37,668 bases of DNA, from contig DAIEHA010000009.1 in the NCBI GenBank assembly GCA_027355945.1, forward strand, positions 1 to 37,668, read 5' to 3'. This document shows positions 1 through 37,438 of this stretch, piece after piece; the stretch's first letter is position 1, and each line of letters starts with the position of its first letter. Below the pieces are notes generated by a model that was given only the letters and a program-made list of their open reading frames with translations, did not search any database and had not been told where the DNA came from. A program made the translations under genes and the position numbers. Source of the stretch: Candidatus Parcubacteria bacterium. GTDB taxonomy: Bacteria; Patescibacteriota; Minisyncoccia; UBA6257; 2-01-FULL-56-20.

Positions 1-160
1 GAAGCCATTTATAACAAGGCCGCATCGGCCGATATAACAATGAGAACATCTATGACTTTTGTTTGCTTCGCGAACAAAGAGCGGGTCCAGCCTAAGCTCG
101 GTGACATGGGCTAAGTCGTAACAAGGCACGCGTAGCGGAAGCTGTGCGTGGATCAATTAA
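1..160 (+). rRNA. rrs: 16S rRNA, 3' end (partial)
   Basis: AAGTCGTAACAAGG (113-126) followed by a perfect helix-45 hairpin CACGCGTAGC-GGAA-GCTGTGCGTG (127-150) and GATCA. The exact 3' end is uncertain because the usual CACCTCCTTT tail is absent. Confidence 0.88.
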
Positions 161-292
161 ACTACTACAATTGAATTGTAGTGATGTCGAGCTTGTCTCT
201 CTTTTGCCCGCGATCGATCGCGGATGGAAGAAAGTCAGGTGATTGGGACAACTAAAAAGCTCTTTAAATCGGTGGATTCAGGCGGACGGTCG

Positions 293-301
293 TGCTATCA
301 T
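293..301 (+). promoter_or_regulatory. Extended -10 promoter element TGcTATCAT, 9 nt before the ATG at 311
   Basis: TG-n-TATCAT; spacing to ATG implies a leaderless or near-leaderless transcript. Confidence 0.5.
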
Positions 302-310
302 ATAAGTATT

Positions 311-1121: not shown

Positions 1122-4100
1122 TCATGGCACGGTGCTTGTGGGTCGCGGCTTGCAGCGGCGAGGAGGAGGATTCCCCGCGGGCACCTGCACCACGGTCGGG
1201 GTAATCGTATCTTTGGCGACCTCGAAAGAAAGCATCGCCGTGCGTTCATTGCCCGCTCCATCTATCGCATCCACCGTGAGACGATGGCCACCCTCCGTGA
1301 GTGATCCTCCATCCGTACTGCGTGCCATGGGGATTCCATCCACGGAAACGGATATGATGCCGATTCCGGACCCCGGATCGCGTACCGTGAAAAGCGAGGC
1401 GAGCACCCCGCTCTTTTGAAGCACGTGGGTGCCTTCAGAGAATTCGATCCGGGGCGGTTCTGTGTCCGCGGCCTCATTGGCGGAAAGGATTGCGGTAGGC
1501 GGTATCGGCGTCCCGGCGCTTCCATCCGCGTGCACGAGGGAGAGCGAGGGAGAAGGTGCGCGAGGATCGGCCATGTTTTCCGATGAGATCGAGATCTCCG
1601 CCGTATCCGATGCCGTTTCGAACGGTATCCCGATGTATGAGGCCGCACCTTGGAGTCGTGCTGCGTCGTCGTATGCGCGGATCACGGCGATCGCCGATCC
1701 GGAAGCGGTTGCGCGAAGGATCATGCGATATGTTCCCGACGCGGGCAGGAGGAGCGAGGTACTGTCGCCGATACGTTCCATGGAGCTCCCCGGGATCCCG
1801 TTCTTCCCCTCGTCCGTGCGCGCTCCATCATAAGCGTCCGCCTCAAGGAGTACCGATCCCCGCACCGCCACTTCAATGGTCGTCTCGCGGCGAGCAGTGT
1901 TGCGACGGCCGTTCATGCAGTCTTCCGTGGAGGTGGACATTCCGAACGCATCGAGCGCAAGGGCTCCCGCAGTATCGTTCAGGAGGGCATCGATGAACGT
2001 GAGCGGGTTCGCATCTTTTATAAGGCCTAGATGATCCGCTCCGTTCTCGGAATAGAGCGAGAAATAGGTCTCATCCGCCCCTCTCGAACCCATGGCCGAG
2101 ATGGCGGGAACGGTGCCATCGCCGTTTCCCCGCATGAGGCTCATGCCGCCATCCTCCCGAAGTACGAATCCGCCGATGGTGGCGGGGTCGCCGCATCCTA
2201 TGATCTTTATTGTTGTTGCGCCTTTTGCGGGCGTCGCAGCGTCCCGTGCCGCATGGAATGTCTCGGCCGCATCGAGCAGGAATGCATTCCTTCCTCCTTT
2301 CGTCCCGGATCCCGTCGTCATAAAGTTCCGCATTTCCCCGAATCCGAGCGTACGATGGCCGCCGTTTCGGTTGTCGATGAGATATCCTCCCACCGCATCC
2401 GTATAGCGTTCGGAGGGAATGAGCTGATATGCCGCAGGCATGTTCTGGGCTATCGATTTCGTCTTTGAGGGATCGAGAAGCGGCAGGGGACCTATGCGGA
2501 ATCCTAGATCGTCGCCGTATTGGAGCATTTTGAACATCTTCGGCGTTCCGAGGTTCGGCGGCGCAACAAGGATCGCCTTGTTGACCGAGGAGGCATTCTC
2601 CTCATGCGCAAGGAATTCCTCCGCAAGCAGCGATCCCATGCTGTGCGCAATGATATCAATCGTGCCATCAAGAGAAAGCCCCGCCGCCCGCTCCATGACG
2701 GGGGTGATCGCCTTTGCGCCCTCTTCCACGGAAAGCCGCCAGTCGTAGGGGGCGACGAAAAGATCGGTTCCTTCCCGGTATCCCATTGCTGCGAGCGAAT
2801 CGAGAAGCGGTCTGTAAAAATCCATGGAGACGAAGGGGATCGATGTGGTGACCGTGCGTATGATATCCGTTGCATCCGCCTCTTTGCCGGAGATCTCCCT
2901 TCCATCCGGTCCGAGCGCCAGGTCTTCAAGATATGCATCAGAGCTTGAGGCGATCAGCATGTCTGCGGCAGGCCATAATTCGCGCCCGTCGGATTCCCGC
3001 GCGATCCTCGAGCCAAGCATTCCCGGAACGATCACGATGGGTCTGCGGCGTGCGGATGCACCGGATCCCGATGCATCTTCCGAGGGCGCGGTTTCTCCCG
3101 ATGGCGTGGAGCTGGGAGATGCGGATGCGGGGGGATCGCTCGCGAATATGCCATGGACCGTCACATTCGCCACACGCACGTCCGCACCTCCCTGGAGGAC
3201 CCCGTCGAACGCCCCGAACGTGAGAAGGAACCGTGCCGGCACGATCTTGTTTCCGAAATCCAGTTCACCTGTCCCTTGTTCGCCCCGGCCGCAGCCGAGA
3301 TATACATCGTTCGTTGAGGTTGCGATGATCGCCTCCGGCATTTCAATGGGGGCGATCACCGCGCCATAACGCCCGTAACCATCGCAATTATTGCTCCCAA
3401 GATTCATCCAATCGAAGGTGATCTTCGTCATGGTGAATGGACCGGGAACCGCATAGGGCGTCGATGAGGGGATGAGGGCGCATGCACGCGGAGATCCATC
3501 CCCGAAGCAGGGATCGGGTTGGGTGTTTTTTCTGTAGATCGTGGATCGGTCCTCGAGTACGGCATCTCCCCGCACGCCATCTTCGATGAAGATGGCCGGT
3601 CCTATCGGATCTCCTTCGGGCGCGACCCAAGGAGAAGTATTGCCGAGCCCATCGACGGTCCGCGCCTGCCAATGATAGCCTCCATTCGGAAGCTCTCGCG
3701 CGAATACGCGCATGATCGAGGTGGTCTCGACCCTGTTCATGAGGGATACGGCGTTCGCAGCCCCGGAAAATCCCACAAAGGATGGTTCGACCTCGACCTG
3801 AAGGCCGAGGTCGTCAGGAAGCGGCGTTCCCACCCTGGCCGTGAAGGCGATCGTGGATACGGGAGAGGTTCCTGACGGGGGGACGAGCGACCCTCCATCG
3901 GAGGATCCCGGGTCCATTCCCTGGAACTGTCCCGCAGGGGACGGCGGTGGGATTTCCGCATATATCATGAACCTCGCTTCCGCGAGAGGAGGAAGGCTGA
4001 AGGTTTCGCCCGTCTCTCCGGTTGTGGATCCAAGGAACGATATACTGGAGAAATTCTGCCCGCCGAACACGTAGTCCCATCGATATCGCGTTCCTTCCGT

Positions 4101-4493
4101 GAGGAATGGATGCGAATCTTTGAATGTGAACATGAGGTCGCCCGCGCATCCATATCCCGAGAAACTATTGTCCGATCTGCCAAGCAAGGTGCCGTCAGCA
4201 TCGTCCCGGACCGTGAGGTAGCAGCTGTTCGTGTCCGGATACCGACTGGAGGTGCCGAAGTTCGTTGTGAATATCCTGATGGTTCCCACGACCCCCGTTG
4301 CGGCCGCCATGAAGGTCTGGGTGCCCGCCGTGATGTCCGTACAGCGGTTATCGCATGATGTGCGCATTCCTGCCGATGCCGAACCGTCGTCCTGTTGCGC
4401 AAGTAGCGCTGCGGCTCCTGCGGAATGGAGGGGAGTGAGGAAAAGGATGCATCCCGAAAGCACCGTAAACGGCAGATATTTTCGTATGGACAT
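1122..4493 (-). CDS. Large secreted LCAT/lipase-like alpha/beta hydrolase with C-terminal Ig-like/accessory domains
   Basis: N-terminal signal peptide; RPIVIVPGMLGSRI, IDIIAHSMGSLLAEEF (nucleophile elbow), GNGDGTVPAISA and ADHLGLI motifs typical of LCAT-family hydrolases; 1123 aa. Confidence 0.85.
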   Translation of the reverse strand: MSIRKYLPFTVLSGCILFLTPLHSAGAAALLAQQDDGSASAGMRTSCDNRCTDITAGTQTFMAAATGVVGTIRIFTTNFGTSSRYPDTNSCYLTVRDDADGTLLGRSDNSFSGYGCAGDLMFTFKDSHPFLTEGTRYRWDYVFGGQNFSSISFLGSTTGETGETFSLPPLAEARFMIYAEIPPPSPAGQFQGMDPGSSDGGSLVPPSGTSPVSTIAFTARVGTPLPDDLGLQVEVEPSFVGFSGAANAVSLMNRVETTSIMRVFARELPNGGYHWQARTVDGLGNTSPWVAPEGDPIGPAIFIEDGVRGDAVLEDRSTIYRKNTQPDPCFGDGSPRACALIPSSTPYAVPGPFTMTKITFDWMNLGSNNCDGYGRYGAVIAPIEMPEAIIATSTNDVYLGCGRGEQGTGELDFGNKIVPARFLLTFGAFDGVLQGGADVRVANVTVHGIFASDPPASASPSSTPSGETAPSEDASGSGASARRRPIVIVPGMLGSRIARESDGRELWPAADMLIASSSDAYLEDLALGPDGREISGKEADATDIIRTVTTSIPFVSMDFYRPLLDSLAAMGYREGTDLFVAPYDWRLSVEEGAKAITPVMERAAGLSLDGTIDIIAHSMGSLLAEEFLAHEENASSVNKAILVAPPNLGTPKMFKMLQYGDDLGFRIGPLPLLDPSKTKSIAQNMPAAYQLIPSERYTDAVGGYLIDNRNGGHRTLGFGEMRNFMTTGSGTKGGRNAFLLDAAETFHAARDAATPAKGATTIKIIGCGDPATIGGFVLREDGGMSLMRGNGDGTVPAISAMGSRGADETYFSLYSENGADHLGLIKDANPLTFIDALLNDTAGALALDAFGMSTSTEDCMNGRRNTARRETTIEVAVRGSVLLEADAYDGARTDEGKNGIPGSSMERIGDSTSLLLPASGTYRMILRATASGSAIAVIRAYDDAARLQGAASYIGIPFETASDTAEISISSENMADPRAPSPSLSLVHADGSAGTPIPPTAILSANEAADTEPPRIEFSEGTHVLQKSGVLASLFTVRDPGSGIGIISVSVDGIPMARSTDGGSLTEGGHRLTVDAIDGAGNERTAMLSFEVAKDTITPTVVQVPAGNPPPRRCKPRPTSTVP

Positions 4494-4771: not shown

Positions 4772-5335
4772 ATGTCTTTCATACTCGGCAAAAAACTTAG
4801 AATGACCCAGATCTGGAAGGACGGCAAAGTCGTTCCGGTTACGGTAATCCATGCGGAACCCAACAAGGTCTCCCTTGTTCGCAATCAAGAGCGTGACGGG
4901 TACGAGGCCGTGCAGGTTTCCCTTGGCAAAAAGAAGCGCGAATTCCGCAATCTTTCCCATGAACCCGTTGTGATCGCTGATTTTTCTGCGGATGCAGAGG
5001 TTACTGTTGAGGCATTCAAAGAGGGGGAGCGGGTCCGCGTGAGCGGCGTGATGAAGGGAAGGGGCTTTCAGGGCGTGGTAAAGCGCCATAATTTCGCAGG
5101 CGGTCCCAAGACCCACGGACAGAAGAATCGCTTCCGCCACCCCGGTTCCATCGGCTCCACCGCGTTCCAGCGCGTCGTTCCCGGAAGGCGCATGGCAGGA
5201 CATATGGGTGTCACTCGCATCACTTTGAAGAATCTCATCGTTGCGGCGGTGGACAAGGAGCACAATCTGATCTTCCTCAAAGGAGCGGTCCCCGGCGTCA
5301 CCGGAGGGCTTATAGAGATTTCAAATCTTAAATAA
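4772..5335 (+). CDS. rplC: 50S ribosomal protein uL3
   Basis: FxxxGKKLRMTQIW..., GRGFQGVVKRHNFAGGPKTHGQ..RHPGSIG. Confidence 0.98.
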   Translation: MSFILGKKLRMTQIWKDGKVVPVTVIHAEPNKVSLVRNQERDGYEAVQVSLGKKKREFRNLSHEPVVIADFSADAEVTVEAFKEGERVRVSGVMKGRGFQGVVKRHNFAGGPKTHGQKNRFRHPGSIGSTAFQRVVPGRRMAGHMGVTRITLKNLIVAAVDKEHNLIFLKGAVPGVTGGLIEISNLK

Positions 5336-5362
5336 GTATTCGCATCACGCGGGAACACCACC

Positions 5363-6007
5363 ATGAAGATTGACGTCTATAATCTGAACAACGAAGTCGT
5401 GGGCTCGATCGATCTCCCGAAGGAGGTGTTCGAGGCGAAGTGGAATGCCACCCTCGTGAAGCAGGTGCTCGATGCCCAGGTCGCGAATCGCCGTGCACCG
5501 TGGGCGCATGTCCGCGATCGCAGCGAGGTTTCGGGCGGAGGAAAGAAACCCTGGCGTCAGAAGGGCACGGGCCGTGCGCGACACGGATCGACCCGTTCAC
5601 CGCTCTGGGTGGGTGGAGGAAAGGCCCATGGCCCTCGGAACGACAAGGATTATTCCCAGAAGGTGAACAAGAAGATGAAGCGGGTGGCGCTCTTTTCTGC
5701 GCTTTCACGGAAGGCGAAGGATGGCGAGATCAGGATCTTCGATTCCCTCGCGCTCGAAAAGCCCAAAACGAAAGAGCTTGCAGGCGCGCTTCATGGTGCG
5801 ATCTCCCTTCCGAAGGGCGGAACGCGTTATGATGTCCTTCTTGTTTCCGATGTGACCAACAAGAACCTTTTCCGTGCGGCATCCAATCTTGTGAAGACGA
5901 AAGCGATCGCCGCGGATTCGCTCAATATTTTCGATATTTTGAACCATAAGAATCTTTTCATCGATAAAGAGGCGGTCGAAGCCATCGGAAAGCATTATAA
6001 GATCTAA
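5363..6007 (+). CDS. rplD: 50S ribosomal protein uL4
   Basis: RDRSEVSGGGKKPWRQKGTGRARHGSTRSPLWVGGGKAHGP. Confidence 0.98.
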   Translation: MKIDVYNLNNEVVGSIDLPKEVFEAKWNATLVKQVLDAQVANRRAPWAHVRDRSEVSGGGKKPWRQKGTGRARHGSTRSPLWVGGGKAHGPRNDKDYSQKVNKKMKRVALFSALSRKAKDGEIRIFDSLALEKPKTKELAGALHGAISLPKGGTRYDVLLVSDVTNKNLFRAASNLVKTKAIAADSLNIFDILNHKNLFIDKEAVEAIGKHYKI

Positions 6008-6021
6008 TACGCACCACTCCT

Positions 6022-6303
6022 ATGGCGAACACACTCCTCATCAAGAAGCCTTGGGTCACCGAGAAAGCGACTGCGGTCGCCGAAAAGGCCAACCAGTATA
6101 TTTTCCTGGTTGACAAGGGTGCAACGAAACCCGAGATCAAGAAAGCCGTCGCGGCCCTTTATAAGGTTGAGGTGACGGCCGTGAACGTAGTGAATCGCCC
6201 GCCCAAGCGGAAGCGTTTCGGGGGTTCGCGCAAAGGCGTTCAGGAAGGATACCGCAAGGCCATTGTGACCGTAAAAAAGGGACAGAAGATCGACATCCAC
6301 TAA
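6022..6303 (+). CDS. rplW: 50S ribosomal protein uL23
   Basis: PWVTEKATAVAEK.QYIFLVDKGATKPEIKKAVAALYKVEVTAVN. Confidence 0.97.
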   Translation: MANTLLIKKPWVTEKATAVAEKANQYIFLVDKGATKPEIKKAVAALYKVEVTAVNVVNRPPKRKRFGGSRKGVQEGYRKAIVTVKKGQKIDIH

Positions 6304-6307
6304 TCCC

Positions 6308-7150
6308 ATGAAATCCTATAAGCCGACAAGCGCTTCGCGCCGCAGCATGACCTCCCCGGATTACCGCGTCCTTACGAAAGGCGTGCGTCCCCATAAGCCG
6401 CTCCTCAAGCGATTGAAGACCCATAGCGGAAGGAATTCCCAGGGCCGCATCACGACCCGTCATCAGGGCGGAGGGAACAAGAAGCTTTATAGGATGATCG
6501 ATTTCAAGCAGAATCGCATGAACCAGAAGGCGGTGGTTCAGAGCCTTGAGTACGATCCTTATCGTACGGCGTTCATCGCCAAGGTTACGTACGATGACGG
6601 CGTTATCTCATATATCATTGCGCCCGAAAAGCTCAAAGTGGGCGATGAGATCGTCACTGCGGAATCTGCTCCTTTCAAGACCGGCAATAGGATGCTCCTC
6701 AGGAACATTCCTGTCGGCACGCAGGTCTATAACATCGAGATGATGCCGGGCCGCGGCGCCCAGCTTGCCCGTTCGGCAGGTCTTTATGCAGAAGTGCTTG
6801 CGAATGCCGATGGATATACCGACCTTAAGCTCAATTCGGGAGAGGTGCGGCGCGTGCCTTGGACGTGCCTTGCATCGATCGGTCAGGTTTCGAATGCGGA
6901 GTGGAGCCTCGTTACCCTTGGCAAAGCCGGCCGTTCACGGTGGCTCGGCATCCGTCCTACCGTACGCGGAAGCGCGATGAACCCCGTCGACCACCCGTAT
7001 GGAGGAGGCGAAGGCGCCCAGCCGCGCGGTACCCGCAAGCCGAAGACGCTGTGGGGCAAGGTCACCGGTGGAAGGAAGACCCGCAACAAGAAAAAGAAGT
7101 CGAACAAATTCATCGTGAAGCGCCGCGTAAGCAAGCGCAACCGAAAGTAA
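6308..7150 (+). CDS. rplB: 50S ribosomal protein uL2
   Basis: GRITTRHQGGGNKKLYR..., VDHPYGGGEG.....GRKTR. Confidence 0.99.
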   Translation: MKSYKPTSASRRSMTSPDYRVLTKGVRPHKPLLKRLKTHSGRNSQGRITTRHQGGGNKKLYRMIDFKQNRMNQKAVVQSLEYDPYRTAFIAKVTYDDGVISYIIAPEKLKVGDEIVTAESAPFKTGNRMLLRNIPVGTQVYNIEMMPGRGAQLARSAGLYAEVLANADGYTDLKLNSGEVRRVPWTCLASIGQVSNAEWSLVTLGKAGRSRWLGIRPTVRGSAMNPVDHPYGGGEGAQPRGTRKPKTLWGKVTGGRKTRNKKKKSNKFIVKRRVSKRNRK

Positions 7151-7168
7151 GACTCCATTATCCCTATC

Positions 7169-7507
7169 ATGTCTCGTTCGCTCAAAAAAGGACCATTTGT
7201 AGATCCAAAACTTCTGAAGAAGATCACCGGTGTTCGCCCGGGAAGCGGTGTTGTCATAAAGACCTGGTCCCGTGCCTCGGAGATCGCCCCGGAATTCGTG
7301 GGATATGTGTTCGGCGTCCATAACGGCCGCGCGCACGTGGAGGTGCGCGTCACGGAGGAGATGGTCGGCCATCGCCTCGGAGAATTCTCCCCGACCCGCA
7401 AATTCCTGCGTCACGGCGGTAAGATGCAAAAGGAGCTTGAGCTGAAAGCCGCGGAAACGCAAAAGGCCCAATCTCAGGCGGCGAAAGCATCACCCGCAAA
7501 GAAGTAA
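7169..7507 (+). CDS. rpsS: 30S ribosomal protein uS19
   Basis: [16 protein letters not shown]...[13 protein letters not shown]. Confidence 0.97.
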
Positions 7508-7531
7508 TATCCTTCCTATCAATTCAAACCC

Positions 7532-8071
7532 ATGGCGACAGAGTATACGGCGAAACTGAATTATCTGCGAATGGCGCCCAGAAAGGTGCGCAGCGTTGGC
7601 GACCTCATCAAGGGCCTTCCGGTCAACGAAGCGGAAGCACAGCTCCTCATGCAGACCCGCCGTCCCGCGAAGCCGCTTCTCAAACTCTTGCGCTCTGCGG
7701 TCGCAAATGCTAAAAATAACGGGCTTACCAACGTGGATCATCTTTTCATCGCGAGTCTTCGCGTCGATGGAGGTCCGATGCTGAAAAGGATCCTTCCTCG
7801 CGCTCGAGGAAGCGCATCGCCGATCGAGAAGAAGATGAGCCACGTGACCCTCCTGCTTGGCGTGAACGAGGCACTCAAGTCCCGCTTCACCATTGCTGCC
7901 CCCAAGAAGCGCAAGACCGGCCTCGGAGAGACTGGAAAGCGTTCTGCAAAGAAGAGGACGATGACCCCCAAGACGGGAGAGTCTGAATCTCCTGATATGA
8001 AGCAGAAGGAAAAACGGGGTGGCAATTTCTGGAAGAGGACATTCAACCGTAAAGCAGGAATGGGAGAATAA
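7532..8071 (+). CDS. rplV: 50S ribosomal protein uL22 with basic C-terminal extension
   Basis: NYLRMAPRKVRSVGDLIKGLPVNEAEAQL... core, then ~60-70 aa Lys/Arg-rich tail. Confidence 0.95.
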   Translation: MATEYTAKLNYLRMAPRKVRSVGDLIKGLPVNEAEAQLLMQTRRPAKPLLKLLRSAVANAKNNGLTNVDHLFIASLRVDGGPMLKRILPRARGSASPIEKKMSHVTLLLGVNEALKSRFTIAAPKKRKTGLGETGKRSAKKRTMTPKTGESESPDMKQKEKRGGNFWKRTFNRKAGMGE

Positions 8072-8080
8072 CACACGGAC

Positions 8081-8821
8081 ATGGGACAGAAGATAAATCC
8101 AAATTCATATCGTTTAGGGGTTACGAAGGGATGGCCGGTGCGCTGGTTCCTTAAGGGCGGCTATCCGAAGTTCCTCGAGGAGGATGAGGCGATCCGCAAT
8201 ACGATCAACAAGAAGATCGGTCTCGCGGGTATCGCGAACATCGAGATCGAGCGTACCCAGGGCAATCTTCGCGTCTATATCCGTGCAGCACGGCCGGGCC
8301 TCGTCATCGGACGTGGCGGAAAGGGGATGGAGGATCTCAATAAGGCGATCAGCGATGCGCTTCGCAAGGTACGCGGCACTGCGGCATCGGGGAAGGTTGC
8401 GCTCAGCCTCAATGTGGAGGAATTGAAGCGGACCGAGGTGTCTTCCAAATATATCGCCCAGCAGATCGCATGGGATCTTGAGAAGCGCATTCGTTTCCGC
8501 AGGACAATGAAGAAGTACCTTGAACAGATCATGCAGAATCGCGACGTGAAGGGGGCGAAGGTGGCCCTTTCGGGACGTCTTGATGGCAATGAGATCGCAC
8601 GACGCGAACATCTTTCCCAGGGTTCCCTTCCGCTTGCCACGCTTCGTGCGGACATCGATTATGGCACCGCAACCGCTTTCACCACCTATGGTACGATCGG
8701 TATCCGCATATGGATCTATAAAGGCGAGGTGTTTGCAAAAAAGTCATCCGATGAGCGGGAGGAGCGGTCTTCGCGCGAGGGCCGTCCGCCGATGGGACGC
8801 CGTCCCGAGCCGCGCGCATAA
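8081..8821 (+). CDS. rpsC: 30S ribosomal protein uS3
   Basis: MGQKINPNSYRLG, GLVIGRGGKG (KH), GRLDGNEIARRE. Confidence 0.98.
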   Translation: MGQKINPNSYRLGVTKGWPVRWFLKGGYPKFLEEDEAIRNTINKKIGLAGIANIEIERTQGNLRVYIRAARPGLVIGRGGKGMEDLNKAISDALRKVRGTAASGKVALSLNVEELKRTEVSSKYIAQQIAWDLEKRIRFRRTMKKYLEQIMQNRDVKGAKVALSGRLDGNEIARREHLSQGSLPLATLRADIDYGTATAFTTYGTIGIRIWIYKGEVFAKKSSDEREERSSREGRPPMGRRPEPRA

Positions 8822-8835
8822 CGAACACCACTGAA

Positions 8836-9246
8836 ATGCTTATTCCCAAAAAGGTAAAACATCGCAAGTGGCAGAAGGGGCGTTCGCGCACCCGCGCCGT
8901 GGAGACCCGCGGTCTCGATCTGAGCTATGGACAGTTCGGCCTCAAGTCGACCGAGTCGGCCTGGGTGAACTCGCGCCAGATCGAAGCTGCACGAAAGACG
9001 ATCACCAACTTCCTTCGCCGCGAAGGACGCCTTTGGATCCGTATCTTTCCCGATAAGCCCATCACCATGCAGGCCCCCGAGAAGACGCTCGGAGGTGGAA
9101 AAGGCTCGGTGGACCACTATGTGTTCCCCGTGAAGCCCGGACGCGTCCTTTTTGAGATCGATGGCGTCGCTGCCGAGAAGGCGAAGGAGGCCCTCAAACA
9201 TGCATCCTATAAGCTTCCGGTAAAAACCCGCATCGTCACGAAATAG
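8836..9246 (+). CDS. rplP: 50S ribosomal protein uL16
   Basis: MLIPKKVKHRKWQKGRSRT...RREGRLWIRIFPDKPIT. Confidence 0.98.
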   Translation: MLIPKKVKHRKWQKGRSRTRAVETRGLDLSYGQFGLKSTESAWVNSRQIEAARKTITNFLRREGRLWIRIFPDKPITMQAPEKTLGGGKGSVDHYVFPVKPGRVLFEIDGVAAEKAKEALKHASYKLPVKTRIVTK

Positions 9247-9262
9247 CATTAAAGGAAATCCC

Positions 9263-9484
9263 ATGAAGAAGAAAGATATCCAGGAAATGAAAAACAGGTC
9301 GTCGGCGGAGCTCACGAAGCTCGTCGAGGACAGTGCGGAGAAGCTTCGTGCGCTTCGATTCGATCTCGCGGCGGGCAAGGTGAAGAACGTCGCCCAGCTC
9401 CGGGAAGTGAGGAAGACGATCGCGCGCGCAAGGACATTCCTTCATGCGCGGAATGCCGCCGCGATAAACGGGACCTCCAAATAG
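9263..9484 (+). CDS. rpmC: 50S ribosomal protein uL29
   Basis: MKKKDIQEMKNRSSAELTKLVEDSAEKLRALRFDLA; position between L16 and S17. Confidence 0.95.
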   Translation: MKKKDIQEMKNRSSAELTKLVEDSAEKLRALRFDLAAGKVKNVAQLREVRKTIARARTFLHARNAAAINGTSK

Positions 9485-9499
9485 GGAACAATGACCATC

Positions 9500-9754
9500 A
9501 TGAAAAAGACCGAGGAAAAGAAAACAAGGAGGATCGTAGGCGTCGTCATATCCGACAAGATGATGAAGACCCGCGTGGTTGCGGTGGATCGTCTCAAGAA
9601 GCATCCCAAGTACCAGAAATACTACCGCGTGACGACCACATTCAAGGCGCACGATGAGGCGAATGAATATAAGGAGGGCGACAAGGTGACCATCGAGGAG
9701 ACCAGGCCGATCTCCAAGGATAAGCGCTGGAAGATCACCGGTAAGGCATCATAA
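9500..9754 (+). CDS. rpsQ: 30S ribosomal protein uS17 (alternative start 9491)
   Basis: [54 protein letters not shown]. Confidence 0.96.
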
Positions 9755-9756
9755 CC

Positions 9757-10125
9757 ATGATACAGGAACGTTCAATATTGAAAGTCGCGGACAACAGTGG
9801 CGCCAAAGTGGTGCGGTGCTTCCGTGTTCTTGGCGGCAGCAAGCGCCGGTATGCGGGCGTCGGCGATATCGTCGTGGCATCGGTGCAGTCTGCGGAACCG
9901 CGCAAGCCGGTGAAGCGGAAGGATGTCGTAAAAGTGCTCGTGGTGCGTTCCAAGAACGCCATCCGGCGCAAGGACGGCTCATATGTGCGTTTCGATGAGA
10001 ATGCCGTCATCCTCGTCGATGCGAAGAAGGAACCCGTGGCGACGCGTATCTTCGGTCCTTTGCCGCGCGAGCTCAAGGAGAAGGGATACGAAAAACTCAT
10101 GACGATGGCGGAAGAAATAGTGTAA
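9757..10125 (+). CDS. rplN: 50S ribosomal protein uL14
   Basis: MIQERSILKVADNSGAKVVRCFRVLGGS.RRYAGVGDIVVASV. Confidence 0.98.
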   Translation: MIQERSILKVADNSGAKVVRCFRVLGGSKRRYAGVGDIVVASVQSAEPRKPVKRKDVVKVLVVRSKNAIRRKDGSYVRFDENAVILVDAKKEPVATRIFGPLPRELKEKGYEKLMTMAEEIV

Positions 10126-10144
10126 TCCTTGCCATTTTATTACC

Positions 10145-10450
10145 ATGAAGATCATCAAAGGAGATACTGTGAAAGTGATGTCCGGAAAGGACCGTGGAAA
10201 GACCGGGGCTGTTTCGGCGGCGTTCCCCGATACCGGGAAGATCGCCATCGAAGGGGTCAATGTCTTCAAGAAGAACTCGCGGCCTCGCCTTCAGGGCGAA
10301 CGAGGACAGGTGGTGGAGGTTTCCCGCCCTCTTGTGGCATCGAAGGTCATGATCATCTGCCCGAGCTGCAAACAGCCCACCCGTATCGGTACGCGCATTG
10401 AAGGCAAGCGAAAGGTCCGTTATTGCAAGAAGTGTCAGTCGACGATCTAA
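10145..10450 (+). CDS. rplX: 50S ribosomal protein uL24 (with CxxC...CxxC)
   Basis: MKIIKGDTVKVMSGKDRGKTGAV KOW motif; C-terminal CPSCKQPTR..CKKC. Confidence 0.96.
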   Translation: MKIIKGDTVKVMSGKDRGKTGAVSAAFPDTGKIAIEGVNVFKKNSRPRLQGERGQVVEVSRPLVASKVMIICPSCKQPTRIGTRIEGKRKVRYCKKCQSTI

Positions 10451-10470
10451 TCTTTTCGAAACCCATTACC

Positions 10471-11040
10471 ATGCCGGAAGCAAAGAAAAATCATAATGAT
10501 CGTGTTGCCATACGCTCCCTTCTTGAGAAGGCGGTCATTGATGCGGGCGTAGGCCGTTTGAGCCAGCAGCCGAATTTCGAGGAAAAGATCCTTCCTCAGG
10601 TCATGCGCGATATCGCCGCGGTCACGGGCCAGCAGCCCCAGATCCGCAGGGCGAAGGAGTCGATTGCAGGCTTCAAGATCCGGGAAGGACAGATCGTGGG
10701 CCTTCGCGTCACCCTCCGCGGGGCGAAAATGGTTGATTTTTTTGAGAGATTGGTTACAATAGTGTTGCCACGCGTACGCGACTTCAACGGAATCGAGCGC
10801 TCGGCGGTTGACCAGGGCGGTACTTTGAATGTGGGCGTGCGCGATCATATGGTGTTCCCGGAGATAAGCCCCGAGAAATCTTTGATCTCATTCTCCCTTG
10901 GCGCGAGTATGGTGCCGAAGAAGAAGAATCACGATGCATCCTTCGCAGCATTTGTCGAGCTTGGCGTCCCTTTCAAAAAGGAGACGGCTGGCAAGACGGG
11001 AGCCAAGAAGAAAAGTGCAGGAAAAAGAAGGAGCAAATAA
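10471..11040 (+). CDS. rplE: 50S ribosomal protein uL5 (start at internal ATG 10471)
   Basis: TGQQPQIRRAKESIAGFKIREGQIVGLRVTLRG..M..F..RL......RDFNG. Confidence 0.96.
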   Translation: MPEAKKNHNDRVAIRSLLEKAVIDAGVGRLSQQPNFEEKILPQVMRDIAAVTGQQPQIRRAKESIAGFKIREGQIVGLRVTLRGAKMVDFFERLVTIVLPRVRDFNGIERSAVDQGGTLNVGVRDHMVFPEISPEKSLISFSLGASMVPKKKNHDASFAAFVELGVPFKKETAGKTGAKKKSAGKRRSK

Positions 11041-11043
11041 GAT

Positions 11044-11229
11044 ATGGCAAAGAAATCCGTCATCGCGCGATCGAAAAAGCGCCCCAAGTTCAGCAGTCGT
11101 ATCGTACGCCGATGTTTTCGCTGCGGACGCAAGCGCGGATATATGCGGGACTTCGGCCTTTGCCGCATCTGCTTCCGTGAGATGGCGACGAATCAGCAGA
11201 TCCCCGGAGTAAAGAAAGCATCCTGGTAA
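11044..11229 (+). CDS. rpsN: 30S ribosomal protein uS14, zinc-binding type
   Basis: [26 protein letters not shown]...IPGVKKASW. Confidence 0.97.
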
Positions 11230-11230
11230 C

Positions 11231-11608
11231 ATGCATTACACAATCCTCCCCGAACTTAAGAACGCGGTCCGCGCAAAGAAGGATAAAGTGATCTTCCCTT
11301 ATTCGAAGATGGATTTGGCGATCCTCAAGAAACTGGCCGATAACGGCTATGTGAAGAGCGCCGAGCGGGAGGCTACGGGCAGAAAGAGCATCATCGTCGT
11401 GAAGCTTGCGAAGACGACGGTCTCTCCCATCAACGACTTCAAGATCAAGAGCAAGCCGAGCCGCCATATTTATACTGATTACCGAAGCTTGAATTCCGTG
11501 CGGCAGGGCCATGGACTCGCGCTGCTTTCCACCTCCCAGGGGATCATGACCGGCCGCGAGGCGAGAAAGGGGAAGATCGGCGGAGAATATCTTTTTGAGA
11601 TCTGGTAA
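11231..11608 (+). CDS. rpsH: 30S ribosomal protein uS8
   Basis: SKPSRHIYTDYRSLNSVRQGHGLALLSTSQGIMTGREARKGKIGGEYLFEIW. Confidence 0.96.
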   Translation: MHYTILPELKNAVRAKKDKVIFPYSKMDLAILKKLADNGYVKSAEREATGRKSIIVVKLAKTTVSPINDFKIKSKPSRHIYTDYRSLNSVRQGHGLALLSTSQGIMTGREARKGKIGGEYLFEIW

Positions 11609-11630
11609 TACCATTCATAACGGAACCATC

Positions 11631-12176
11631 ATGAGCAGACTTATTAAAAAATCCATCACCGTTCCCGAAGGCGTGGCCGTGGCCGTGGCCGAGGGAGAGG
11701 TGCGCATCAAAGGCCCGAAGGGCGAGATCGTTATTCCGGTTGCGCGGGAGGTTGAGGTGACCGCTGATGCGAAGGAGCTTTGGGTAAAGACCCCTGTTTC
11801 AAGGAATGCGTCTACCGCGATGCACGGGACGATCTGGTCCCTTTCGAAGAACGCCATAGAGGGCGTGACGAAAGGATTCGAGAAGATCCTCGAGATCGAA
11901 GGCGTAGGCTACCGCGCGACGATCGAAGGGAAGGAGCTCGTTCTTTTCCTTGGATATGCGCTTCCGGTCCGTATGCCCATTCCCGATTATGTGGCGGTTT
12001 CCGTGGAAAAGAACACCATAAAGATCACGGGTATCAATAAAGAGCAGGTAGGACAGGTTGCCGCAGAGATCCGCGCCCTCAAGAAGCCCGAGCCGTACAA
12101 AGGAAAGGGCATCCGCTATCGCGGCGAGGTCATCCGCAGAAAGGCGGGCAAGAAAGCGGGAGCTTCAGGTTCGTAA
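11631..12176 (+). CDS. rplF: 50S ribosomal protein uL6 (start at 11631)
   Basis: MSRLIKKSITVPEGV...IKGPKGE...GVTKGFEKILEIEGVGYRATIEG...YKGKGIRYRGEVIRRKAGK. Confidence 0.97.
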   Translation: MSRLIKKSITVPEGVAVAVAEGEVRIKGPKGEIVIPVAREVEVTADAKELWVKTPVSRNASTAMHGTIWSLSKNAIEGVTKGFEKILEIEGVGYRATIEGKELVLFLGYALPVRMPIPDYVAVSVEKNTIKITGINKEQVGQVAAEIRALKKPEPYKGKGIRYRGEVIRRKAGKKAGASGS

Positions 12177-12200
12177 CGCATAATCCCAGTCATCACTATC

Positions 12201-12578
12201 ATGAACGCAGCAAAGAAATTGAATAAACGGAGGATGCGCCGGATCGCCAGGACGAGGGCCCGCATCAAGGGTACCGCTGAGCGCCCCCGCCTTGCCGTGC
12301 ACAGGACGAACCGCTATTTTTACGCCCAGCTTATCGATGACCTGAAAGGCGTCACTCTCCTTTCCGCTTCGAGCGCAGCGCTCCATAAGGGTGGGACTGC
12401 CGGTGCAAAGGCCAAGACGACGAAGACCCAGGAATCCTTTGCGATAGGGGAGATGCTTGGGAAAAAGGCATCGGAAAAGGGCATCGCGTCGGCGGTATTC
12501 GATCGCCGTTCGTATAAGTTCCATGGCCGCGTAAAGAGCTTCGTCGAAGGCGCGAAAAAGGCAGGTCTTACGATATAA
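12201..12578 (+). CDS. rplR: 50S ribosomal protein uL18
   Basis: RPRLAVHRTNRYFYAQLIDD..., FDRRSYKFHGRVKSFVEGAKKAGL. Confidence 0.96.
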   Translation: MNAAKKLNKRRMRRIARTRARIKGTAERPRLAVHRTNRYFYAQLIDDLKGVTLLSASSAALHKGGTAGAKAKTTKTQESFAIGEMLGKKASEKGIASAVFDRRSYKFHGRVKSFVEGAKKAGLTI

Positions 12579-12585
12579 CATAATC

Positions 12586-13143
12586 ATGGCACCCATCACC
12601 TCCAATCCTTCGGTTCAGCAGCGCCCCGGTATGCATCAGGGTTCCGGTCAGTCGGGTTTCCGACGCGGAGGCCCGGGATCCCGCGGTCCGCGCCTTCCTC
12701 AGGGACCTCGCGATGATTTTCGCGAGCGCGTGCTTGATATGCGCCGCGTCACCCGCGTCGTGGCGGGCGGCAAACGTTTCCGTTTCCGCTGTACGCTTGT
12801 GATCGGCGATGAGAAAGGACGTGTTGCGATCGGCGTTGCGAAGGGTCTCGACGTGCAACAGGCCGTTGCGAAGGCCAAAGCGGATGCGAAGAAGCACATC
12901 ATCCAGGTCAACCTGAAAGATGGACGCACGATCGCCCATGAAGTAGATGCGAAATACAGCGCCGCAAAGGTGCTTATAAAGCCTGCAAGCAAGGGGCACG
13001 GTCTCCGCGCCGGCGGTTCGGTGCGTTTCGTGCTTGCGTTCGCGGGTGTGAAGGATGCTACGGCAAAGGTGCTCGGCCGCACGCCGAACAAGCTTACGAA
13101 CGCAAAGGCAACGCTCGAGGCACTTAAAAAGCTTAAGGCATAA
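12586..13143 (+). CDS. rpsE: 30S ribosomal protein uS5
   Basis: DFRERVLDMRRVTRVVAGGKRFRFRCTLVIGDEKGRVAIGVAKG. Confidence 0.97.
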   Translation: MAPITSNPSVQQRPGMHQGSGQSGFRRGGPGSRGPRLPQGPRDDFRERVLDMRRVTRVVAGGKRFRFRCTLVIGDEKGRVAIGVAKGLDVQQAVAKAKADAKKHIIQVNLKDGRTIAHEVDAKYSAAKVLIKPASKGHGLRAGGSVRFVLAFAGVKDATAKVLGRTPNKLTNAKATLEALKKLKA

Positions 13144-13149
13144 CCGACC

Positions 13150-13596
13150 ATGAAACTCCATCAACTTTCCACATTGAGGACCCGGAAGGTCCAGCGTATC
13201 GGCCGCAGCGGCAAGCGCGGCAGTTATTCGGGGCGCGGCGTGAAGGGACAGCGTTCCCGTTCCGGCCATCGCATCCGTCCTGCGGAGCGCGATCTCATTC
13301 TCAAACTTCCGAAGATCCGCGGTTTCCGCAACAAGCCGAAAGACGAGGTTCCTGAGGTGTTCAACCTCGGTGCGCTCGCCGCGAAGTTCGCGGATTTGGC
13401 GAAAGGCGGCAAGGGCGGCGCGATCACGATAGATCGGACGCTTCTCCGCTCCGTGAAGCTCATCAAAAAGGATTATAAGGGGATCATAAAGATCCTCGGC
13501 ACCGGCGAAATATCGTTTCCGGCATCCTTCGAGGGCTTCCAGATTTCGTCCGCCGCAAAGGCCAAGATCGAGAAGGCCGGGGGAAGCGTGAAGTGA
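13150..13596 (+). CDS. rplO: 50S ribosomal protein uL15
   Basis: RIGRSGKRGSYSGRGVKGQRSRSGHRIRP. Confidence 0.96.
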   Translation: MKLHQLSTLRTRKVQRIGRSGKRGSYSGRGVKGQRSRSGHRIRPAERDLILKLPKIRGFRNKPKDEVPEVFNLGALAAKFADLAKGGKGGAITIDRTLLRSVKLIKKDYKGIIKILGTGEISFPASFEGFQISSAAKAKIEKAGGSVK

Positions 13597-13618
13597 GTAT
13601 AAGGATCGCCTCATCCCT

Positions 13619-14890
13619 ATGGAACGATTAGTCCAGATATTCAAAGTAAAGGAGCTTCGGAACAAGATACTCATCGTACTCGGGCTTCTCGTGGCGTATC
13701 GGGTGCTTGCGGCGATCCCCATCCCGGGAGTGAACGCCCAAGCGCTCCAGAATTATTTCAATTCGAACCAGCTCCTCGGATTCCTCAACTTCTTCTCCGG
13801 AGGGGGACTTGCCACGCTTTCCGTCGTGATGCTCGGCGTGGGCCCCTACATCACCGCCACGATCGTGATGCAGCTCATGACTATCATCTTCCCGAGGATG
13901 AAGGAACTGTATTACGAGGAAGGGGCCCGTGGGCAGGCGAAGTTCAACCAGTATTCCCGGCTTCTCACGGTTCCGTTCGCATTCGTGCAATCCTATGGAT
14001 TCCTCAAGCTCCTTATTTCGCAGGGGGTCATACCTCAGCCCAATCTTTTCAGCATGTTGAGCAACGTTATCGTGATCACCGCGGGCTCGATGGTCGCATT
14101 GTGGCTCGGTGAGCTTATCAGCGAACAGAAGGTGGGCAACGGCATTTCCCTCATCATCCTTGCGGGAATCCTGAGCCGATTCCCCACGACCGTAGGGACC
14201 GCGATTGCGGCCTACACCCCCCAGATGCTCACCTCGTACCTCGTCTTCATCGTGATCGGGTTCCTTCTCATTGCCGGTATCGTGTATCTGAACGAAGGTG
14301 AACGGAAGATCCCCGTCGCATATGCGCGGCGCGTCCGCGGCAATAAGATGTATGGAGGAGACCAGAGCTATCTTCCTCTCAAAGTGAACCAGGCAGGGAT
14401 GATCCCGCTCATTTTTGCGATATCGGTCCTGCTCTTCCCGCAGTTCCTTGCGCAAATCGTCATCCTTTTCTCGCAGAAGTGGGGGCTTGCGATCAGCAAT
14501 TTCGCGCAGGCATTCGTTGCGAATCAGCTTTACTATGGGCTGTTCTACTTCCTTCTCGTCTTTGCATTCACGTATTTCTATACCGCGATCACCTTCAATC
14601 CCGAGGAAGTCGCGAAGAATCTTCAGCAGAGCGGAGGATTCGTTCCGGGTATCCGCCCGGGAGAGAGCACCGAGCGTTTCTTCGGCAGCATCGTGAACCG
14701 GATCACTTTCTGGGGTGCGGTGTTCCTCGGTATCGTAGCGATCTTCCCGATCTTGATCCAGTTTGCAACGGGGATCTCGGTGGTCACCATCAGCGGGACG
14801 GCGATCCTTATCGTTGTTGCGGTGGCGCTCGAAACGATGCGCATGGTGGATTCAGAGCTCACCGTCAGGGAATACGAGGGGATAGAATAA
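13619..14890 (+). CDS. secY: Preprotein translocase subunit SecY
   Basis: Multi-TM protein; RIPVAYARR-like KIPVAYARRVRG, GFVPGIRPGEST, PYITATIVMQL. Confidence 0.97.
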   Translation: MERLVQIFKVKELRNKILIVLGLLVAYRVLAAIPIPGVNAQALQNYFNSNQLLGFLNFFSGGGLATLSVVMLGVGPYITATIVMQLMTIIFPRMKELYYEEGARGQAKFNQYSRLLTVPFAFVQSYGFLKLLISQGVIPQPNLFSMLSNVIVITAGSMVALWLGELISEQKVGNGISLIILAGILSRFPTTVGTAIAAYTPQMLTSYLVFIVIGFLLIAGIVYLNEGERKIPVAYARRVRGNKMYGGDQSYLPLKVNQAGMIPLIFAISVLLFPQFLAQIVILFSQKWGLAISNFAQAFVANQLYYGLFYFLLVFAFTYFYTAITFNPEEVAKNLQQSGGFVPGIRPGESTERFFGSIVNRITFWGAVFLGIVAIFPILIQFATGISVVTISGTAILIVVAVALETMRMVDSELTVREYEGIE

Positions 14891-25653: not shown

Positions 25654-25659
25654 TATAAT
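25654..25659 (+). promoter_or_regulatory. -10 TATAAT, 6 nt before ATG 25666
   Basis: TTGGGC (25630-25635) - 18 nt - TATAAT. Confidence 0.6.
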
Positions 25660-25665
25660 CACGAT

Positions 25666-30968: not shown

Positions 30969-32006
30969 ATGGCGTCCATTACGAAGCTCGTCAATGCAGC
31001 GGTGATAGGTCTGAGTCCTCGGCAGAAAGAAGTCATTTTTTCTCGTTTCGGGCTCGACGGAAATTCCCCCAAAGGAGGGCAGACTCTTGCTGCGATCGGC
31101 GAAACGCTTCACGTCACCCGCGAACGGGTGCGCCAGATCGAGAATGGGGCCATCACCATCATCAAGCGCAACATTTCCCGGAATTCCGATCTTGAATCGA
31201 TGCTCCGAAAGATCGCAGTATTCATCGAGGAAAAAGGGGGTATCGCCAAAAAGGAAGCCGTGGTCAAGTATGCCGCGACCCTCGCATCGGGCATCAAGGA
31301 GAACCATGTGGATTTTCTTGCGGATGCATCGGGAACCTTCCATCTTTACCGCGAAGATGATGCGTTCCATCCGTTCTATTACGTCACGGATCGCGACCTG
31401 AAGACGGCAAAGACCTTTGTTGAGGGATGGGTGGCATTCCTCAAGGGCCGCAAGGAAAAGGTTCTCATCGAATCCTATGCGGTGCAGCTCGCGGGCTTCC
31501 TCAGATCGAAGACGATGGCCCACGAGGTTGCGGAAAACTACCTTTCGATCTCGAAGCACATCCACCAGAACCCTTACGGCGATACGGGACTCCGTGAATG
31601 GCCCGAGATCAGCCCTTCGACCGTGCGCGATAAGATCTATCTTGTCCTCAAGAAGCGGGGAGAGCCGCTTCACTTCGAGGACATCGCGAAGCATATCAAC
31701 CTCGCCAAGTTCGATTCGGAAAAGGCACTTGCACCTACGGTCCACAACGAGCTCATCAAAGACCAGCGTTTCGTGCTCGTGGGACGGGGCCTTTATGGCC
31801 TGAAGGAGCATGGCTACGAACCCGGTACCGCACGGGAGGTGATCGCCAAGATCCTGAAGACGGAGGGCGCCATGAATACCGCAGAGGTGATGGAAGCGGT
31901 GAATCGCCAGCGGTTCTTCAAACCCAACACCATCCTGATCAATCTCCAGAACAGGAACTTCTTCGAACGGATGCCTGACGGAAAATATAAGGTCCGCGAA
32001 TCCTGA
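30969..32006 (+). CDS. Sigma-70 region-4-like HTH fused to a HARE-HTH (RpoE-delta-like) domain
   Basis: LSPRQKEVIFSRFGL..TLAAIGETLHVTRERVRQIENGAI; later VLKKRGEPLHFEDIAKHI...TVHNELIKDQRFVLVGRGLYGLKE. Confidence 0.85.
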   Translation: MASITKLVNAAVIGLSPRQKEVIFSRFGLDGNSPKGGQTLAAIGETLHVTRERVRQIENGAITIIKRNISRNSDLESMLRKIAVFIEEKGGIAKKEAVVKYAATLASGIKENHVDFLADASGTFHLYREDDAFHPFYYVTDRDLKTAKTFVEGWVAFLKGRKEKVLIESYAVQLAGFLRSKTMAHEVAENYLSISKHIHQNPYGDTGLREWPEISPSTVRDKIYLVLKKRGEPLHFEDIAKHINLAKFDSEKALAPTVHNELIKDQRFVLVGRGLYGLKEHGYEPGTAREVIAKILKTEGAMNTAEVMEAVNRQRFFKPNTILINLQNRNFFERMPDGKYKVRES

Positions 32007-35457: not shown

Positions 35458-35649
35458 ATGTTTGTATCCTGGTGGGTCATCGTTCTTGTGGGATTGGTGC
35501 TTATGTATCTCGTGATCATGAACGCGCATCTCCATAAGCGCGTGAAAAAGCTTGAAGCCGTCGTCCGCCGACTCGAAGGGGTGAGCGAGGAGGAGGTGAA
35601 GAAGCAGATCAAGGAAAGGATGACGCAATACGATGCCGGAGGAGATTGA
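35458..35649 (+). CDS. Small TM plus coiled-coil protein, 63 aa
   Basis: MFVSWWVIVLVGLVLMYLVIMNAHLHKRVKKLEAVVRRLEG...; overlaps the next ORF. Confidence 0.65.
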   Translation: MFVSWWVIVLVGLVLMYLVIMNAHLHKRVKKLEAVVRRLEGVSEEEVKKQIKERMTQYDAGGD

Positions 35650-37438
35650 TGATGCGCCCGGCGAGTCGCGCGTGTGTGTGAATTGCGGCGATTCATTTGC
35701 CATCGGATCCGACGACCTCTCGTTCTACCGACGGATGAAAGTTCCGCCGCCCACCTTCTGTCCGGAATGTCGGATGAAGAGAAGGATGGTCTGGCGCAAT
35801 GAACGGACGCTTTATAGGAGGAAATGCGATGCTCCGGGGCATTCCGAGGAGGTCATCTCCGTCTTTTCGCCCGAAACGCCTTATGTGGTCTATGATCAAG
35901 CCGCGTGGTGGTCCGATGCGTGGGACCCTTTGGAACACGGGCAGGATATCGATCGTTCGGTACCGTTCTTCACGCAGTTCGGGAAGCTTCTTGCCACCAC
36001 GCCGCTTATCGCCGTCGTGAACGGTACGGCGACGCATACGGAGTATGCGAACCACGCATATGAAAGCAAGGATTGCTATCTTGTGACGGCAGCGTTGCGG
36101 AATGAGCACGTCTTGTATTCGAACCGTACGTCGAACAACCGCGATTCCTCCGATCTCTATCTCTGTGGAAAGATGGAAGGTTGCTATGAGGATGTGAATT
36201 GCGGGACCTCGTATAGACTTTCCTTCAGTGCGTTTTCCGAGGATTGCAGGGATTCCTCATTCCTTTATGATTGCAGGAACTGCGATCATTGCATCGGCTG
36301 CGTCGGACTCAGGAACAAATCGTACTATATCTTCAATGAACCCTGTTCCAAGGAGGATTTTGAGAGGCGCTCCCGCGAACTCCATCTTGGAAGTCATGCG
36401 GCCATCGAGGGGATCCGGGAGAAGCAGCGCCATCTGATGGCCTCGTTCCCACGGAAATATATGTATTCCTTCAAAACGACGGACGTGACGGGTGATATTG
36501 CGGGAGAGGCGAAGAACTGCCACTATTGTTTCGATGTGACGGGGATCCAGGATTCGAAATTCTGCGTGTGGGGAGGATTCAATATGAAGGATTCCTATGA
36601 TGGTTACGGGATGGGCGACAGCGCCGATCTTTTGTACGAGGTGGTGGACGTCGGCATCCAGGCGGCGAACGTGAGATTTTCGATCATCGCGTGGGGATGC
36701 CACGATGTGCAGTATTCCTATAATTGCCACGGCTCCTCGAATCTTTTCGGATGCGTCGGCCTAAGGAACAAGCAGTATTGCATCTTGAACAAGCAATATT
36801 CAAAAGAGGAGTACGAAACGCTCGTGCCCATGCTTATTGCGCATATGGATGCGGCACCGTATACGGATGCCCATGGCAGGAAGCATGGCTACGGTGAGTT
36901 CTTTCCCGAGGAACTATCGCCGTTCGCATACAACGAGACGGTCGCGCAGGAATATTTCCCTGTGACGCGGGACGAAGCCAAAATAAGGAACCATCGATGG
37001 AAGGAATCGGATGCGAAGCGGTATGTGATAACAATGGAATCGGCCGACATCCCGGATGATATCTCGCATGCCGACGCAGGCGCGATCGCCGATGCGATCC
37101 TTTCCTGTTCGCATGGCGGCGCATGCACGCATCAGTGCTCTCGCGCGTTCCGCATCATTCCGGATGAATTCGCGTTCCTCAAGAGGATGGGTCTCGCGCT
37201 GCCGCGACTGTGCCCCAATTGCCGACATTACGAACGCCTGGCGCAGCGGAATCCCTTGCAGCTATGGCACGGGAAATGCGCCTGCGCTGGGACCGCCTCC
37301 AAGGATGGGGCGCACATCAATTCAGCAGCGCATTCCCACGGCAAGGATGCATGCCCGAACGAGTTCGAGACGTCCTATGCGCCCGATCGCCCCGAGATCG
37401 TCTATTGCGAGCAATGCTATAACAGCGAGATCGCCTGA
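35633..37438 (+). CDS. Cys-rich zinc-ribbon protein with internal repeats, unknown function
   Basis: CVNCGDSFAI..FYRRMKVPPPTFCPECRMKRRMVWRNERTLYRRKCD; internal GCVGLRNKSYYIFNEPCSKEDFE and GCVGLRNKQYCILNKQYSKEEYE; second zinc-ribbon-like region near the C terminus. Confidence 0.85.
   Translation: MPEEIDDAPGESRVCVNCGDSFAIGSDDLSFYRRMKVPPPTFCPECRMKRRMVWRNERTLYRRKCDAPGHSEEVISVFSPETPYVVYDQAAWWSDAWDPLEHGQDIDRSVPFFTQFGKLLATTPLIAVVNGTATHTEYANHAYESKDCYLVTAALRNEHVLYSNRTSNNRDSSDLYLCGKMEGCYEDVNCGTSYRLSFSAFSEDCRDSSFLYDCRNCDHCIGCVGLRNKSYYIFNEPCSKEDFERRSRELHLGSHAAIEGIREKQRHLMASFPRKYMYSFKTTDVTGDIAGEAKNCHYCFDVTGIQDSKFCVWGGFNMKDSYDGYGMGDSADLLYEVVDVGIQAANVRFSIIAWGCHDVQYSYNCHGSSNLFGCVGLRNKQYCILNKQYSKEEYETLVPMLIAHMDAAPYTDAHGRKHGYGEFFPEELSPFAYNETVAQEYFPVTRDEAKIRNHRWKESDAKRYVITMESADIPDDISHADAGAIADAILSCSHGGACTHQCSRAFRIIPDEFAFLKRMGLALPRLCPNCRHYERLAQRNPLQLWHGKCACAGTASKDGAHINSAAHSHGKDACPNEFETSYAPDRPEIVYCEQCYNSEIA

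Follow-up and report, generated by a model that had tools for sequence, protein, structure and literature searches.

A 16S rRNA 3' tail without the anti-Shine-Dalgarno in an order of Paceibacteria

Introduction

Few sequences in bacterial rRNA are as conserved as the anti-Shine-Dalgarno (aSD), and the locus described here raises the question of whether a group of bacteria has dispensed with it. The DNA analyzed, referred to below as the window, is a stretch of 37,668 nucleotides from a Candidatus Parcubacteria bacterium. It opens with the 3' end of a 16S rRNA gene in which, according to an initial annotation, an intact helix 45 (h45) is followed by a tail lacking CCTCC. We propose, with a probability of about 0.85, that this tail is that of a genuine, functional 16S rRNA and that the order of Paceibacteria (Patescibacteria) it comes from has lost the aSD for good, as part of an independence from Shine-Dalgarno (SD) pairing that includes leaderless-type promoters. 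Bacteria without an aSD are an established kind; what is new here is the extent of the loss, which is fixed across the order, and the features linked to it.

Results

The 16S rRNA 3' end in the window

Because the window begins at the edge of its contig (C27), the 16S gene is represented only by its last 160 nt or so (1–163, + strand; part of h44, h45 and the tail), as delimited by an SSU model and by full-length 16S genes of the same genus. The match of this stub to the SSU model is cut off at its 5' end by the contig edge, and its best Rfam match is the eukaryotic SSU model. The letters of h45 at 127–150 (+), read directly, are CACGCGTAGC-GGAA-GCTGTGCGTG; the helix is intact and folds as a 10-bp stem with the GGAA tetraloop that is the target of KsgA, the gene for which is present. 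It is followed by GATCA at 151–155 and by ATTAAACT at 156–163, the latter at the site where bacteria have CCTCCTTT after GATCA. The tail at 151–163 (+) is therefore GATCAATTAAACT where the canonical one is GATCACCTCCTTT, a sequence of 13 nt (PMC6107228). CCTCC is absent from the 50 nt following the tail region; on the + strand, the window has its first CCTCCT at position 2293. The first description of this junction was exact.

Directly 3' of the tail lies the hairpin ACTACAATTGAATTGTAGT (ACTACAATTG-AATTGTAGT; 164–182, +), which was identified by folding and by comparison with relatives. Its sequence varies among relatives, many of which keep a hairpin, and several trailers have none; it is probably part of the pre-rRNA trailer. 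A GTCGA motif at 186–190 (+) is found in 28 of 55 relatives vs 3% in shuffles. Its distance 3' of the tail is variable and it often stands behind a lineage-specific hairpin (loci L031–L085); it possibly pairs with the 16S leader for processing. Sequence comparison identified a further trailer element common to relatives, GCTCTTTAA at 259–267 (+), which we take to resemble boxA. Since the hairpin, GTCGA and the boxA-like element together look like a pre-rRNA trailer, the mature 3' end of the 16S rRNA would lie near 163, that is, at ...GAUCAAUUAAACU plus or minus 2 nt. Neither 23S nor 5S follows the 16S gene in the window (183–310); downstream of the boxA-like element are a response-regulator gene from 311 and rplS (L19) at 733. 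The rRNA genes appear to be unlinked here.

Conservation of the replacement tail

Comparison of the 3' end with those of relatives, a check suggested along with the initial observation, covered 61 relatives and 131 genomes of the order and recovered the same junction between h45 and tail across the order in independent assemblies. A helix-45 match was obtained in 82 of the 131 genomes, none of which has a CCTCC of its own. The sole CCTCC tail of the order came from contig C31 of genome G049; the 16S on it differs from that of the lineage, the same genome has GGATTAATTAAATACAA on another contig, and C31 looks like a foreign, contaminating contig. Two bins contain 16S copies of different lineages, G018 (C42, C46, C49, C54) and G049 (C31, C33); both are probably contaminated and unfit for tail surveys.

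Nearly every family member found carries GGATCAATTAAACT or close variants of it. A pattern scan of a named genome collection with GGANCAATTAAA returned 55 stretches labeled as Liptonbacteria, Harrisonbacteria, Colwellbacteria, Jorgensenbacteria, Wolfebacteria, Parcubacteria, Patescibacteria, Paceibacterota or simply 'bacterium'. The order concerned is the Liptonbacteria/Harrisonbacteria/Wolfebacteria order of the class Paceibacteria, which is a large group of uncultured, tiny bacteria. With tail positions counted from the G preceding GATCA, GATCAATTAAACT is conserved in 67 different loci at 0.9–2.0 bits per position up to tail position 14; from position 16 on, two bases beyond the tail end, the information content is at most 0.3 bit. 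Across most of the order, the length of the tail has been kept at 13 nt while its core has changed, with ATTAAACT in place of CCTCCTTT.

We tentatively suggest, at somewhat below even odds, that the conserved tail AUUAAACU has a function of its own in a 30S subunit that works without SD, perhaps by giving the 3' terminus a new contact with the processing machinery, the platform or a ribosomal protein, and that it arose while the order as a whole shifted to translation that is largely leaderless. Alternatively, the tail could be a neutral remnant that was left after loss of the aSD and is conserved by common descent alone. The quite different tails of other aSD-less families and the variability of tail positions 13–14 would fit such a remnant, but conservation stops sharply at the 13-nt boundary and the adjoining trailer is randomised in the same genomes. 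As this pattern points to selection on the tail, we regard neutral descent as unlikely.

Start codons lack a Shine-Dalgarno signal

Start codons were taken by a simple ORF rule as the first ATG of long ORFs with no other in-frame ATG within 60 nt. Complementarity to SD at these starts was 19.0% vs 17.9% in shuffled sequence for the window's genome and 10.5% vs 11.7% for 55 relatives; an E. coli control, small at 25 starts, gave 60% vs 15%. There is thus no enrichment of SD motifs before start codons in the window's lineage. The ribosomal-protein operon from L3 to SecY (4772–14890, +) has start contexts without SD, and the stretches upstream of its starts are mostly G-poor, as in taatccc|ATG and cataacc|ATG. 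Inside genes of the window's genome there is no avoidance of AGGAGG, which occurs at 1.16 of the synonymous-shuffle expectation. It is avoided in the aSD-bearing genomes G166 (0.68) and G654 (0.71), with the aSD-bearing G302 as an exception that shows little avoidance (0.96). Internal SD avoidance is uneven, as GGAGG is still slightly avoided inside genes of the 55 aSD-less relatives. G654, which belongs to another class, has a moderate SD excess at its starts (21 vs 11%). In G302 (L206–L225), T precedes 76–87% of start codons at position -1 (UAUG). This holds for operon-leading as well as internal genes and may reflect pairing with A37 of fMet-tRNA.

We considered whether the new tail could be a re-coded aSD, with AUUAAACU pairing, upstream of genes, with an altered SD such as AGUUUAAU. 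Its conservation over many genera and families might be expected of such an element, but the upstream regions carry no signal complementary to it. Their mean pairing energy with the tail was 0.04 vs -0.04 kcal/mol in shuffles, 0.8% of them fell below -3 vs 1.3% in shuffles, and the k-mers enriched upstream are -10-like (TATAAT) rather than AGTTTAAT. A re-coded SD was rejected on these grounds as very improbable.

Leaderless-type promoters

The upstream signal is instead a promoter element close to the start codon. In the window's genome, TATAAT with at most one mismatch ends 6 nt before the ATG (gap 6) at 11.0% of starts, compared with 0.46% of internal ATGs; the 55 relatives gave 10.5% vs 0.32%, and G400, from another aSD-less family, 10.3% vs 1.06%. 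The -10 peak lies exactly 6 nt before the ATG and has the extended form TGnTATAAT, as TG is found at -15/-14 in 54–76% of gap-6 sites that were selected by the hexamer only. No -35 element was seen at these sites. An example from the promoter scan is located at 25654–25665 (+), where the ATG stands at 25666 and TATAAT ends 6 nt upstream of it. In the aSD-bearing G166 and G302, the -10 peak is weaker and broader. A -10 element at this distance would place the transcription start on the A of the ATG, and the mRNAs from gap-6 genes should thus be leaderless. Since a near-consensus -10 element is found at gap 6 in about 11% of clear starts and at gaps 5–9 in 21%, leaderless mRNAs would account for part of the genes only.

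Integrity of the 16S gene

Could an insertion or intron separate h45 from a downstream CCTCC, the two being joined in rRNA maturation? rRNA introns are frequent in CPR bacteria, and a group I intron does interrupt the 16S gene at locus L005; a hairpin also comes right behind the tail. Against a displaced aSD, the downstream sequence is variable and has no common CCTCC within 60 nt in the 55 relatives, the tail is conserved at canonical length, and the hairpin is missing from several related trailers. This explanation was rejected as highly improbable.

The initial annotation had named a second rrs copy with CCTCC, an assembly break at about position 155, or a pseudogene as findings that would undo its observation. 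No second rrs was found: the h45 motif occurs once in the window's genome, also when two mismatches are allowed, although this genome is a draft MAG of 735 kb and 91.8% completeness, which leaves some room for a missing copy. Nor is there a break, as dozens of independent assemblies read through the junction. Full-length 16S genes of the same genus, of which the window itself has the 3' end only, fit the bacterial Rfam model with 1353–1368 bits over nearly its whole length, as is not expected of a pseudogene. Although the contig starts inside the 16S gene and the genome is an incomplete draft, we therefore give next to no credence to an assembly error, a contaminating contig or a pseudogene copy, considering the identical junction in so many assemblies of the order, the ribosomal-protein operon on the same contig and the intact 16S genes of the genus. 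The intact genes and the tail common to the order bear out the initial suggestion of a functional 16S without aSD.

Repeated loss of the aSD in the class

Within Paceibacteria, many families keep GGATCACCTCCTTTCTA, and many others carry different tails without CCTCC, such as TTATCTAAACT, TTTTTTTAAAA, TATCCAATTGG and TTTCAAATTGA; intermediate tails, CACTTCTTATCTA and CACCTTCTTTCTA, are found as well. Outside the class, nearly all Patescibacteria sampled have CCTCC or close variants such as TCTCC and CTTCC. On a 16S tree made without the tail (112 rows, 1278 columns), 8 changes are needed for CCTCC and 9 for CTCC, at least 5 of which are forced by starred branches; this is a quick tree of a chosen rather than random set, with few columns in some intron-bearing rows and some long branches. 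The window's order has its core in a starred clade of its own that is aSD-free throughout, with a few rows of the order falling elsewhere. The aSD has been lost repeatedly within Paceibacteria.

Translation and maturation factors

IF3, KsgA, a short S1 homologue and bS21 are all present in the window's genome. Given that the first three are retained, a lack of initiation or maturation factors was rejected as an explanation. Most of the window's order keeps bS21. It went undetected in about half of the other aSD-less families sampled vs 3 of 26 aSD-bearing genomes of the class, a comparison that ignores kinship; the families without a detected bS21 include G299, G241, G411, G141, G371, G400, G434, G346 and G224, all outside the window's order. 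Co-loss of bS21 with the aSD is possible there. No convincing orthologue of Era was found in the order, nor in the aSD-bearing G166 and G104, and absence of Era was therefore rejected as the cause of aSD loss. The negative result for the window's genome agrees with a report that Paceibacteria are mostly without Era (PMC12641178).

Discussion

The initial annotation held that a functional 16S rRNA without aSD would be a major change in translation initiation. The functional aSD-less 16S stands; the loss itself seems to have come late, as a consequence of SD-independent initiation and not its cause, because the aSD-bearing Paceibacteria G166 and G302 show little or no SD excess at their starts. 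From these few genomes, SD independence probably preceded loss of the aSD. In the mechanism we propose, operon-leading mRNAs would often be leaderless or nearly so, and the 30S or 70S ribosome, together with fMet-tRNA and initiation factors, would bind the AUG at their 5' end. At internal genes, initiation would be coupled to the stop codon upstream or would take place in unpaired leaders poor in G. With pairing no longer of importance, CCTCC would have eroded several times in the class; in the window's order, another sequence may have been fixed under a different constraint such as 3'-end processing, protein contact or platform packing.

Whether the lineage had already been reported to lack the aSD was left undecided at first, and the case is not unprecedented. 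SD-scarce genomes without CCUCC have been described for Candidatus Wolfebacteria, Campbellbacteria, Absconditabacteria (SR1) and Peribacter (PMC10783764); Table 4 of that study (2024, PLoS One) lists one Wolfebacteria (GW2) and one Campbellbacteria genome in its category iv. The features of this category are found here, namely a CCUCC-less tail with intact h45, a state common to relatives, no SD enrichment and a 16S that is otherwise functional, and a Wolfebacteria record also matches the present tail. Category iv, however, consists of single complete genomes with few or no SD, whereas here the loss is order-wide, the replacement tail is conserved, the class shows repeated losses, and the promoters carry a leaderless signature. 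Among the 128 taxa with variant or absent aSD (Amin et al. 2018, PMC6107228), such as Chryseobacterium, Mycoplasma, Carsonella and Hodgkinia, SD likewise vanishes along with the aSD and the 13-nt tail frame is shared; these taxa belong to other phyla, and the tail of Hodgkinia varies between copies while the new tail here is conserved. As in Flavobacterium and other Bacteroidia (PMC9976891, PMC8710568), most genes here appear to initiate independently of SD, but Bacteroidia keep their aSD hidden by bS21, bS18 and bS6. Sequestration of that type does not apply, as the aSD sequence itself is gone here and bS21 is present in the window's genome. Eukaryotic SSU rRNA (tail GGAUCAUUA, no aSD) similarly keeps GGAUCA and lacks CCUCC, but this is convergence only, as the full-length 16S of the genus fits the bacterial model. 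For this group, neither the pattern across the class nor the conserved replacement tail nor leaderless promoters were found described in the open-licence papers searched.

As one large class contains both families with an aSD and families without it, the order in which SD use and the aSD were lost becomes testable, as do the replacement of the aSD and other constraints on the 16S tail. There are practical consequences as well: gene callers that expect SD may misplace starts in these genomes, and a 16S annotation that stops at CCTCC will cut the gene at the wrong place. A 2025 survey of CPR ribosomes noted that the 16S 3' end is often not fully annotated (PMC12641178).

Other genes in the window

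Three further genes in the window were noted. Adjoining the rplS region, 1122–4493 (-) encodes a 1123-aa protein with an LCAT-like acyltransferase/lipase domain and a weak Ig-like match. A 601-aa protein with many cysteine pairs, encoded at 35633–37438 (+), matches no Pfam family, and the product of 30969–32006 (+) has a sigma-70 region 4 domain fused with a HARE-HTH domain.
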